Below are positions 34,652 to 38,073 of a stretch of 64,000 bases of DNA, one piece after another; within the stretch, counting starts at the first letter, position 1; each line of letters starts with the position of its first letter. The notes under the pieces were generated by a model. That model worked only from the letters and a program-made list of their open reading frames with translations. It was not told the DNA's origin and searched no databases. The translations under genes were made by a program, and so were the position numbers. The stretch comes from Candidatus Hodarchaeota archaeon (GTDB taxonomy: Archaea; Asgardarchaeota; Heimdallarchaeia; Hodarchaeales; Hodarchaeaceae): the NCBI GenBank assembly GCA_016840035.1, contig JAEOTC010000154.1, positions 1 to 64,000 on the forward strand, given 5' to 3'.

Positions 34652-34854
34652 CTTTATTACTTCAATTAGATAGATATGAAGAGATTTCGAAGAATTATCT
34701 ATATCTATTCCTGAGATTTTCCCCTGAAAACCCCAGGGCTAGTATTGCCGTATAATTTGCTAGAATGTGGTGTGTGGGGTTCCTTTTCCCAGAAGTAAAG
34801 ATTAATAAATATACAAAATCTGTATTTAATTACGTAGTATTGGAGTGATATACA

Positions 34855-34959
34855 ATGCCTCGACCAGTTAAAAGAGTAGACACAGAATCAAAAGAAAAAG
34901 CAACGGAAGATGCAGAAAAGAATAAAGACACAGTTCCCATTTCGAAACATTATTCTTAA
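34855..34959 (+). CDS. Putative 34-aa peptide upstream of the JAB-E1-E2-E2 operon
   Basis: ATG...TAA: MPRPVKRVDTESKEKATEDAEKNKDTVPISKHYS; GGAG 8-10 nt upstream, TATA-like aaatatacaaaa further upstream; too short for ORF track. Confidence 0.35.
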   Translation: MPRPVKRVDTESKEKATEDAEKNKDTVPISKHYS

Positions 34960-35000
34960 CTTAGACTTTTATCTATTTTTAATCCACATAGGGGATTTAT

Positions 35001-35942
35001 TTGTTGTATTCGCATCAAGAGGAGTCCATTTTCATCCAAATTGATCAGAATACATATGATGAGATGATTAATGAAGGCCTTCTTTGGCCACAAATTGAAA
35101 CAGGTGGAATGCTATTCGGGAATATCATCGAAGAGGAACAGAATCTTGTCATCAAGATTCAAAGAACTTATATCCCTTCAAGTGAAGATTGCATACGTGA
35201 AGCTGCGTATTTTGAAATAGAACCTGAATTTGCAAAAATGATTCTCTCTCAGGAGAGTCTTAAGTATTTGGGCAACTGGCACAAACATCCTGGATATGGG
35301 GGGCCTTCTCAAGGTGATCGAAGGCAAATTCAAGATTTTTTTGGGAATAATCCCCATCTAGATTTTGTTTTAACATTTATCCTTAACTTCCATTCCGATG
35401 CTTTTATTGAACCTATAATTGAGACATATTTTCGGACAGATGAGAATCTAAACTCGGGCCATTCATTTCTAACTCGCTATATCCCTCAAAGCAATCTCAT
35501 ATTCATTCCTTCACAATTAGATGAGCCTAAACCAATAATCCAAACCAGTGGTATTCCAAATGCATTAATATCTCGAATAAAACAAGAACTTGTAAATCTT
35601 TTTGATCATCTTTCTTCCATTGAAGAAATCCAAGAATTTCCTGGGCAAACTCCCGATGAGAAAGTTATTTCCTTTCCCTATACGGTTTTAATTCAGCAAG
35701 AAAAAGTAAACATTTTAATACTGATCTCATTTCCTCCTGAATTTCCTAAAGGAAAAATATATTTTGATATCTCCTCAGAGGATATGTCTAAAGACATTAC
35801 ATTTAAGACTCATCCAGCAGAGACGTTAACCGATCTAGAACTTGTGAGTCCATTCTTAGAAGTGCTTAAATCTGATATCGAGCATGATATCCCAGTGCTA
35901 TTGGAAAAACCTCTCTGGAGAGTTATGCGAGAGAAACTGTGA
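35001..35942 (+). CDS. JAMM/JAB-family metallopeptidase with apparent C-terminal RWD/E2-like domain
   Basis: Complete JAMM motif: E33 (ETGGMLFG), H94xH96 (GNWHKHP), S103, D106 (GPSQGD); C-term VNILILISFPPEFPKGKIYFDI resembles the RWD/UBC beta-meander; TTG start. Confidence 0.88.
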   Translation: MLYSHQEESIFIQIDQNTYDEMINEGLLWPQIETGGMLFGNIIEEEQNLVIKIQRTYIPSSEDCIREAAYFEIEPEFAKMILSQESLKYLGNWHKHPGYGGPSQGDRRQIQDFFGNNPHLDFVLTFILNFHSDAFIEPIIETYFRTDENLNSGHSFLTRYIPQSNLIFIPSQLDEPKPIIQTSGIPNALISRIKQELVNLFDHLSSIEEIQEFPGQTPDEKVISFPYTVLIQQEKVNILILISFPPEFPKGKIYFDISSEDMSKDITFKTHPAETLTDLELVSPFLEVLKSDIEHDIPVLLEKPLWRVMREKL

Positions 35943-37189
35943 ATAAAATGAAATTCTTACTTTACCCAGAACTGGAGACTGAATTAGCTAATCTTCCGCT
36001 CAAGGAAAAGATTTTTCCATTATTTGGAAGAGTTTTTGATGATTTTACCGTATTTCACTTTGTTAGTATAACATCTGATATGAAATCTCTTCGACAAATT
36101 GGATATATCTCGAATAGGGAAACTATTACTGATTTTACACTTGATTTTCCATTCATTCACCTGATAGTTGATACAAAACGTCTTGAAGTTACGAAGATTG
36201 CCATCCATAAGAGTCAAGATGATATTGAAATTATAAGAGAATTTGATATTGAAAAAGTAGATTTAAACAGATTATTTGTTCGAGTTGATAAAGCAGAAAC
36301 TCCATTAAATTTACTTCAAACAAAAACTGTAGCTATTATCGGTATGGGGTCGGGTGGTTCTTTACTCGCTTTATATCTTGCGAAAACGGGAGTTAAGAAA
36401 TTTATCCTCATCGATGATGATCGTCTTGAGGTTCACAATATCATTCGCCATATCTCTGACCTTTCACACCTCGGGAGATTTAAGACTAAGGTAGTGGAAG
36501 AATATATTGGTGCAAGAATACCAGATATTGAAATTCAAACCCTAGAACAAAAATTCGTGATACATACTCGAAAAGATGCAGAGTTTTTTTTGAATTTACT
36601 CTCCGATGTGAATCTGCTAATTGCGGTTTCAGGAGAACACGATGTTAATTTTGCTATAAATGATTTTGTACACATTAATAACTTAACCTTACCAGTTATT
36701 TATGCTGGTACATTTGATGGGGTGAAAGGGGGCTTAATGTTTAAAGTGGATCCACGGAAAGATGATATCTGCTATCATTGTGTATATGCCGATTCTTTTG
36801 CTTATCCCTTGACAGACAAAGAGTTAAAAAGCGATATTCCGACAACTACTGAGTTAGAAAAGAAAATTGTTTACGACCGAACCATGCAGGAACAATTAGC
36901 ACAACCAGGATTGGGATTAGATATTGATAATTTGACGATTTTTCTTTCGAAATTCTGCATAGCTACTCTATTAGACGGACAAGAACACGGTTTATACCGT
37001 TTTCCTTTTAATTTTTATCTCTGGTATAATAGAAACGTATTCCAACCGGATTCAGATGAAATTAAGTTTGAAGGCCTTGAACTTCTCTATTATGAGGACT
37101 TAGAGAAAAATGCTGAATGCCCCTTCCATGGAGAGCAGGTTAAAGCAACTTTGAAGGACAGTGATGAAGGGAACTCCCCCTCATTATAG
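35939..37189 (+). CDS. ThiF/E1-like adenylyltransferase
   Basis: KTVAIIGMGSGGSLLALYLAKTGVKKFILIDDDRLEVHNIIRHISDLSHLGRFKTKVV, canonical E1 nucleotide-binding motif; CYHC and CPFH putative metal ligands; 4-nt overlap with JAB stop (GTG start; alternate ATG 35948). Confidence 0.92.
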   Translation: MNKMKFLLYPELETELANLPLKEKIFPLFGRVFDDFTVFHFVSITSDMKSLRQIGYISNRETITDFTLDFPFIHLIVDTKRLEVTKIAIHKSQDDIEIIREFDIEKVDLNRLFVRVDKAETPLNLLQTKTVAIIGMGSGGSLLALYLAKTGVKKFILIDDDRLEVHNIIRHISDLSHLGRFKTKVVEEYIGARIPDIEIQTLEQKFVIHTRKDAEFFLNLLSDVNLLIAVSGEHDVNFAINDFVHINNLTLPVIYAGTFDGVKGGLMFKVDPRKDDICYHCVYADSFAYPLTDKELKSDIPTTTELEKKIVYDRTMQEQLAQPGLGLDIDNLTIFLSKFCIATLLDGQEHGLYRFPFNFYLWYNRNVFQPDSDEIKFEGLELLYYEDLEKNAECPFHGEQVKATLKDSDEGNSPSL

Positions 37190-37212
37190 TTTATAATTAA
37201 GGAGAAAGTTTC

Positions 37213-37647
37213 ATGTCACTTCGTGGGAATTTAATCGATAGGGAAATAGAAAAATTAAGCAAAATCTTTCCCGACATTCAAAAAAGAGACTTTCTACAAC
37301 TTAAGAATAAAAATAAGTGTGTTCAGGTTAGTTTTCTCACAACTGGGAAATATGCATGTGGGCATTTTGATGTTCTCATTGAGTTCCCATACAATTATCC
37401 AGTTGGTTCACCACTCGTCTGGGTTCAAAAACCCAAAATTCCTAAGAATACTCCACATGTATACGGGTGGGATAAAGAGGGACACGCAAGTATTTGTTAT
37501 CTCCGACCTAAGAAAGACTGGCGTTTAAACTATAGCTCATATGAAACGGCACTGATGGTAGAAATTTGGCTTAAAACTTATTGTAGATGGACTAAAACTA
37601 ATGTTTGGGATTGGCCAGAAGCAGGGGTACTTGATCATATATTTTGA
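37213..37647 (+). CDS. E2 (UBC)-like protein, first copy
   Basis: FDVLIEFPYNYPVGSPLVWVQKPKIPKNTPHVYGWDKEGHASICYLRPKKDW...YCRWTKTNVWDWPEA; putative catalytic Cys95. Confidence 0.85.
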   Translation: MSLRGNLIDREIEKLSKIFPDIQKRDFLQLKNKNKCVQVSFLTTGKYACGHFDVLIEFPYNYPVGSPLVWVQKPKIPKNTPHVYGWDKEGHASICYLRPKKDWRLNYSSYETALMVEIWLKTYCRWTKTNVWDWPEAGVLDHIF

Positions 37648-37659
37648 GCTTAAAGATGG

Positions 37660-38073
37660 ATGAATTTAATGAGACGAACCGTCGAAAACGAATTACATGA
37701 ATTAAAGGGTGTATTTCCAGGTTTAACACGTAAGGATTTCTATTATTTAGACAATGGAAATATTGCGGTTCAAGTCAAGTATGCAACAACTGGACAGTAC
37801 GCCCACGGTACATTCACCGTGCTCATTGAATTTCCCCATAATTATCCGAACGCTCCTCCGCGAGCATGGATTATGGAACCAAATATTTCAAGTCGTACAC
37901 ACCACATATACGGTCGGGATGAATACGGACATACTGAAATCTGTTATCTTCGTCCTCAGAAAGACTGGCACTTCACATTTACCTCTTATGATGCTGCAAT
38001 CATGATTCAGACTTGGATTTGGGCTTATTGTCGATGGCGTAAGGTTGGTATTTGGGATTGGAAGGAAGCCTAG
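37660..38073 (+). CDS. E2 (UBC)-like protein, second copy
   Basis: FTVLIEFPHNYPNAPPRAWIMEPNISSRTHHIYGRDEYGHTEICYLRPQKDW...YCRWRKVGIWDWKEA; putative catalytic Cys95; ungapped by-eye alignment to first copy. Confidence 0.85.
   Translation: MNLMRRTVENELHELKGVFPGLTRKDFYYLDNGNIAVQVKYATTGQYAHGTFTVLIEFPHNYPNAPPRAWIMEPNISSRTHHIYGRDEYGHTEICYLRPQKDWHFTFTSYDAAIMIQTWIWAYCRWRKVGIWDWKEA

Follow-up and report, generated by a model that had tools for sequence, protein, structure and literature searches.

A 64,000-nucleotide stretch of DNA from a Candidatus Hodarchaeota archaeon (hereafter the window) carries a five-gene operon that encodes, in order, a peptide of 33-34 amino acids (aa), a JAB/JAMM metallopeptidase, an E1-like adenylyltransferase and two E2-like proteins, E2a and E2b. 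This operon probably constitutes a self-contained, reversible conjugation system in which the operon's own 33-aa peptide acts as the modifier. The peptide gene encodes a protein product, purifying selection on it is very strong, and its membership of the operon is close to certain. It supplies a conjugation operon that would otherwise be an orphan with a concrete candidate modifier, one that bears no likeness to ubiquitin and is much smaller. All five genes lie on the + strand, and the coordinates below are positions in the window.

34788..34811, +, TATA/BRE (B recognition element)-like archaeal element CCCAGAAGTAAAGATTAATAAA, from an alignment of 7 upstream regions; kept in 7/7 species, whereas the DNA before it is not
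34842..34845, +, ribosome site GGAG for the peptide gene; kept in 7/7 species
34855..34959, +, peptide gene, first in the operon, 34 codons, MPRPVKRVDTESKEKATEDAEKNKDTVPISKHYS; proposed modifier, from conservation and co-occurrence
35001..35942, +, JAB/JAMM metallopeptidase, 313 aa; proposed deconjugase or processor, from a profile match, the JAMM residues and a structural model
35939..37189, +, E1-like adenylyltransferase, 416 aa, from a ThiF profile match, alignment, tree and model
37213..37647, +, E2a, UBC-like, 144 aa, candidate catalytic cysteine C95 in ICYLRPKKDW, from profile matches
37660..38073, +, E2b, UBC-like, 137 aa, cysteine in ICYLRPQKDW, from profile matches; paralogue of E2a

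The initial annotation of this DNA described four compact genes on one strand (JAB, E1, E2, E2), and the open reading frames (ORFs), their spacing and domain searches all bear this out: JAB and E1 overlap by 4 nt, and gaps of 23 nt and 12 nt separate E1 from E2a and E2a from E2b. Its interval starts at 34855, however, which is not the start of JAB (35001) but the ATG of a separate, unlisted 34-codon ORF that ends 41 nt before JAB. Its statement that there is no recognisable modifier is not supported either: the operon opens with this ORF, where a modifier would be expected, and the product is an ultra-conserved peptide of 33-34 aa. The peptide of the window consists of MPRPVKRVDTESKEKATEDAEKNKDTVPISKHY plus an extra C-terminal serine, whereas those of the other six species that possess the operon end in SKHY at 33 aa. 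It is a 3.8 kDa peptide with an isoelectric point of 8, a grand average of hydropathy of -1.5 and six lysines, and it contains no Gly, Cys, Leu or Phe. Searches against PDB, Pfam and NCBIfam returned no match to it. A beta-grasp fold would need a longer and less polar chain, and the peptide is probably disordered.

At 85-100% identity between species (mean 93%), the peptide is the most conserved gene product of the set; for comparison, JAB proteins are 43-67% and E1s 55-70% identical. The mean ratio of non-synonymous to synonymous differences (pN/pS) across 21 species pairs is 0.078 for the peptide, 0.160 for E2b, 0.243 for E2a, 0.324 for E1 and 0.438 for JAB. Third codon positions hold 249 of the 304 pairwise differences in the peptide gene, the four closest species show only synonymous changes across the 33 shared codons, and not one of 803 segments of 33 residues from the other four proteins is as conserved. 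The pN/pS ratios, the third-position bias and the segment comparison therefore exclude both chance and a mere leader. Such conservation is a ubiquitin-like pattern, as would befit a component with many partners. Could the short ORF instead be untranslated, and the conserved stretch a regulatory RNA or DNA element? It does lie between the promoter and the first long gene, but the third-position differences and synonymous-only changes just described contradict this idea, as do the absence of frameshifts, the use of three different stop codons (TAA, TGA or TAG in the six relatives) and the retention of the GGAG site, and I consider its probability close to negligible.

The search for the peptide, E1 and E2s covered 228 Asgard genomes, and that for JAB covered 12, those of a single genus. 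Seven of the 228, all from this genus, contain the peptide together with the specific E1 and both E2s, which were found in none of the other 221; JAB was found in the same seven genomes of the genus. The specific E1 scores above 670 bits in these species, and the next best Asgard match reaches only 116. No part of the operon was found in the five other genomes of the genus, some of which are only ~70% complete. Weak peptide matches in three further genomes (G107, G108 and G120) are due to chance: they fall within long reading frames that are coiled-coil-like or unrelated.

All seven species have the genes in the order peptide-JAB-E1-E2a-E2b, an agreement far beyond chance. The surroundings are of four different kinds: four species have the downstream MoxR/DUF58 genes in common and nothing else, and the neighbours in the other three are unrelated. 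I was unable to identify a ubiquitin, RING, CD-NTase or effector gene in the flanks of the operon (2 to 11 kb a side) in any of the seven genomes. The initial annotation had noted the absence of a beta-grasp gene, a CD-NTase and an obvious effector next to the genes in the window, and the same holds in the relatives. It had also proposed looking in related genomes for a ubiquitin or RING gene within the operon, of which there is none in any of the seven, and for conserved synteny across Asgard genomes, which does exist in these seven; the small gene that recurs beside the enzymes is that of the peptide, not of a beta-grasp protein. Because the gene order is invariant while the neighbours vary, the five-gene cassette is complete as it stands.

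The adenylation residues of the E1, the E2 cysteines and the JAMM residues of the JAB are all intact. The E1 belongs to the E1-like adenylyltransferase superfamily: it matches ThiF (PF00899) at 6.6e-23 and carries the nucleotide loop GxGSGG (invariant G135, G137, S138, G139 and G140) together with D159, R170 and K182. A beta-rich N-terminal domain (1-115) precedes the ThiF domain (about 125-286); a pseudo-JAB identity for the former is unsupported (hhalign E 0.11). The only invariant cysteines are C278, C281 and C394, which belong to the zinc ligands C278xxC281 and C394xxH397. The crossover loop reads IPTT and contains no cysteine, and a crossover-loop cysteine is also absent from the E1s of Asgard Cap2-like loci, Bradyrhizobium, Mesorhizobium and another Asgard genome, G077. 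In a maximum-likelihood tree, the window E1 and its orthologues fall on the Cap2 side, apart from the ubiquitin-type E1s (100/99, the latter with MoeB), although several long rows are placed unsurely. PaaA and MccB are among the best matches in sequence searches. A low-confidence structural model of the E1 (mean predicted local distance difference test score, or pLDDT, of 57), read for overall fold only, matches MccB with MccA best, and also Cap2 with CD-NTase, UBA5 and the Bub E1. Two of these matches, MccB-MccA and Cap2-CD-NTase, are E1s bound to a short peptide substrate or a C-terminal tail.

E2a and E2b are paralogues (47% identity), and their cysteine is invariant in 14 of 14 sequences. 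Both match the Pfam family UQ_con below its cut-off (E2a 0.0047, E2b 1.9e-5), as they do RWD. The PADLOC models for E2 proteins of CBASS (cyclic oligonucleotide-based antiphage signalling system) fit them better than Pfam, at 7e-8 and 4e-9. Searched against PDB, the E2 profile matched 32 sequences weakly (E 0.018 to 0.09), all of them ubiquitin-conjugating enzymes or variants. These matches are consistent with a UBC fold in E2a and E2b. The E1 and the E2s alike are closer to bacterial proteins of the Cap2/CBASS type than to the enzymes of ubiquitin systems, in keeping with the earlier proposal of a distinct, non-eukaryote-like conjugation system. Two further E2-like sequences came to light. 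In one relative, ~1.1 kb past the downstream end of the operon (L022:6365-6466), there is a degenerate sequence, broken by stops, that resembles the 34 C-terminal residues of E2b; it is possibly a decayed third E2 copy. In genome G044, a hydrogenase-maturation-like gene neighbours that of a stand-alone 278-aa protein (L076:1829-2665), which resembles the window E2s in its C-terminal half.

The JAB matches Prok-JAB (PF14464) at 2.6e-7, above the cut-off, and its model (pLDDT 78) matches the MPN metalloproteases Rpn11, BRCC36 and CSN. The N-terminal MPN domain contains E33, H94xH96 and S103xxD106, so that the full JAMM motif reported in the initial annotation is indeed present, and its residues are invariant in the seven species. 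Six residues separate H96 from S103, one fewer than the usual seven. With E, HxH and SxxD on an MPN fold, the protein is a JAMM peptidase with a spacing one residue short. Its second, C-terminal domain (about 185-313) has an alpha-beta4-alpha topology and contains an FPxxFP motif that lines up with the E2s. The hhalign E-value of 0.012, where three other domain pairs gave 0.11-0.49, is suggestive of a third UBC/RWD-like domain.

Short first genes are also found in two related operons. The next nearest Asgard relative of the E1 and E2s lies on a G077 contig with E2-E1-JAB. At the head of this operon, after a GGAGG site, is an unlisted 47-codon ORF (L072:318-461, G077:C192) that encodes MLSNDEMSDKLGKLLKGSRKIYIDKNGRITTKDAPGPKTTFKHQVWY and ends in HQVWY. 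A plasmid of Mesorhizobium sp. AR10 (L086) encodes a 57-aa protein (WP_258600245.1) ending in LGGEY, followed by an E2, a cysteine-less E2-like protein, an E1, a JAB, a metallo-beta-lactamase-like protein and a patatin. The G077 and Mesorhizobium peptides resemble each other, since only 12 of 2000 shuffles score as high. Both operons share with that of the window a short first ORF ending in tyrosine, one or more E2s, an E1 without the crossover cysteine and a JAB with an extra C-terminal part, but they differ in gene order, peptide-E2-(E2)-E1-JAB, in the length of their peptides (47 and 57 aa) and in having seven residues between the JAMM histidine and serine. A C-terminal tyrosine is common to all three short ORFs (the 33-mer of the window's relatives, the 47-aa and the 57-aa peptide), and a common rule drawn from three cases is a lead rather than a result. 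Tentatively, Asgard archaea and rhizobia may share a class of ubiquitin-type systems that use short disordered peptides of 33-57 aa with a C-terminal tyrosine as conjugated tags, and in which E1s free of the crossover cysteine hand these tags directly to E2s; I would put this somewhat short of an even chance. In the Mesorhizobium operon, the E2-like protein with serine in place of cysteine (L086:4350-4880) bears a Phd/YefM antitoxin-like domain fused to its N-terminus, and its annotation names the antitoxin only.

Searches of IMG/VR found no relatives of the E1s, the E2s or the Mesorhizobium JAB, and a plasmid search with the window E2b found none. The E1 matched in a phage record (H68) neighbours a large FtsK/type VII-like gene and does not belong to this system; plasmid matches in Aliarcobacter and Klebsiella are sulfur-carrier and patatin/NACHT-linked loci.

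How might such a system work? The E1 would adenylate the C-terminal carboxylate of the peptide, at tyrosine 33 or at a residue exposed by JAB trimming. Because the E1 has no crossover cysteine, the next carrier of the peptide would be the cysteine of either E2a or E2b, reached without an E1 thioester. The E2 would join the peptide, through its C-terminus, to amino groups of targets, from which the JAB would later remove it. There is a precedent in Cap2, which conjugates CD-NTase, a protein without a beta-grasp fold, by its C-terminus (PMC10097602). Several points weigh against a role as modifier. The peptide lacks glycine and its C-terminus is bulky, and that of the window species carries one extra C-terminal Ser; in CBASS, the C-terminal Gly/Ala is conserved and replacement of the Gly by Ser, Val, Arg or Trp abolishes conjugation (PMC10097602). 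Thus, either the E1 pocket must differ and be wider, or the JAB must trim the tail. The pocket of MccB must likewise be wide enough for Asn. In addition, the window peptide has no detectable homology to those of G077 and Mesorhizobium (625 and 747 of 2000 shuffles), its strong conservation would equally fit an adaptor, a target or a precursor peptide, and adenylation, thioester formation, conjugation, the class of target and deconjugation are all steps that I infer.

A rival view is that the peptide serves the system as a regulator, an adaptor or an obligate target, for instance as an E1/E2 cofactor or as an acceptor of modification, and that the modifier is another molecule, perhaps a ubiquitin-like protein of the same genome acting in trans. 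Six lysines could accept a modifier, the C-terminus is not small, and ubiquitin-like proteins are encoded in three clusters of this genome: C184 (a ubiquitin-like gene, E1, E2 and a RING-like gene), C3 (L082, G000:C3:1-8000; two consecutive ubiquitin-like genes, E1, E2, JAMM and a RING-like membrane protein) and C112 (L083, G000:C112:95000-104000; E1, a ubiquitin-like protein ending in KGG, a zinc-ribbon protein, E2-type proteins, JAMM and a stomatin-like protein). However, these ubiquitin-like proteins sit with E1s of their own, in which the crossover-loop cysteine is intact (CTPFG, ACTLVG and PCTLVG), whereas the clade of the window E1 is another one, on the Cap2 side. The recurrence of short first genes in two related operons also argues against an adaptor or target, and I regard this explanation as unlikely. 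Less likely still is a pathway of the kind that makes ribosomally synthesised and post-translationally modified peptides, where the E1 would adenylate the peptide as MccB does MccA, yielding a peptide-nucleotide or amidated product with the E2s and JAB as auxiliaries. The fold match to MccB with MccA, the sequence matches to PaaA and MccB and the want of a conserved crossover-loop cysteine in the E1 would all suit such a pathway, but the peptide is near-invariant across species, whereas warfare peptides usually diversify, and no exporter or immunity gene consistently adjoins the operon in the seven genomes. Nor do two cysteine-bearing E2s and a JAB fit into the known microcin C pathways.

A further proposal concerns only the role of the system and is compatible with the peptide as modifier: the cassette may be an antiviral module like CBASS or Bil, with the peptide in the role of BilA or the CD-NTase tail and an effector encoded elsewhere in the genome. 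CBASS-type models are the nearest to its E1 and E2s, its distribution within the genus is patchy (7/12 genomes), and the Mesorhizobium parallel is adjoined by metallo-beta-lactamase-like and patatin-like genes. Yet no CD-NTase, effector or recognised defence gene stands beside the cassette in any of the seven genomes, and the peptide and E2b evolve very slowly, which an arms race would not lead one to expect; an antiviral role is a minority possibility.

Among known systems, the operon is a variant of prokaryotic E1/E2/JAB conjugation. It lies outside CBASS, 6A-MBL, Bil and canonical Asgard ubiquitin, because each of these fails at least one of the defining features tested. With the C3, C112 and C184 clusters it shares the general E1, E2 scheme and, in two of the three, a JAMM protein, but those clusters have their own beta-grasp genes, E1s with the CT-motif cysteine and, in two of three, a RING-like gene. 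The operons 6a-6e, including 6a/6A-MBL (Iyer et al., 2006; PMC1779556), likewise combine E2, E1 and JAB, and all four enzymes of the operon match the 6A-MBL model NF058523 weakly. Nevertheless, the best score is 57.4 bits against a cut-off of 320, there is no triple fusion and no metallo-beta-lactamase gene, and the candidate modifier is a short peptide rather than a beta-grasp protein. Bil (BilABCD) differs in that no BilA with two beta-grasp domains is encoded in the operon in any of the seven genomes, and in that the CEHH motif of its E2 (C138, E144, H146, H151) is missing from the window E2, where the residues 6, 8 and 13 positions after C95 are not E, H and H. MccB/MccA and PaaA share an E1 fold acting on a short ribosomal peptide, but they work without E2 or JAB and make antibiotics. 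Pup is also a small disordered peptide tag, but it is ligated by PafA via a Glu side chain and not by an E1 and E2.

A literature search, which reached mostly papers outside subscription, yielded no description of a short-peptide modifier with E1, E2 and JAB. If the peptide is the modifier, the beta-grasp fold is dispensable for an E1-E2-JAB cascade even where the modifier is a dedicated gene product, and the peptide would, as far as is known, be the smallest genetically encoded E1/E2 tag. Such a tag would exist in the lineage closest to eukaryotes, in the same cell as three ubiquitin-type clusters.

Among the closest comparisons is that with Type II CBASS (Cap2, an E2-E1 protein, and Cap3, a JAB). 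Its E1, E2 and JAB fall into the same broad clade, its modifier is not a beta-grasp protein and its E1 recognises a C-terminal tail (PMC10097602). Unlike CBASS, the operon has no CD-NTase or effector in the seven genomes, separate E1 and E2 genes in all seven, two E2s and, as candidate modifier, a free 33-aa peptide without a C-terminal Gly/Ala. CBASS-like loci do occur in Asgard archaea: four of them (L073, L074, L075 and L077, in genomes G127, G119, G084 and G013) encode E2-E1 fusions whose E1s have no crossover-loop cysteine, and L073-L075 also carry a CD-NTase and a SAVED/nuclease-like gene.

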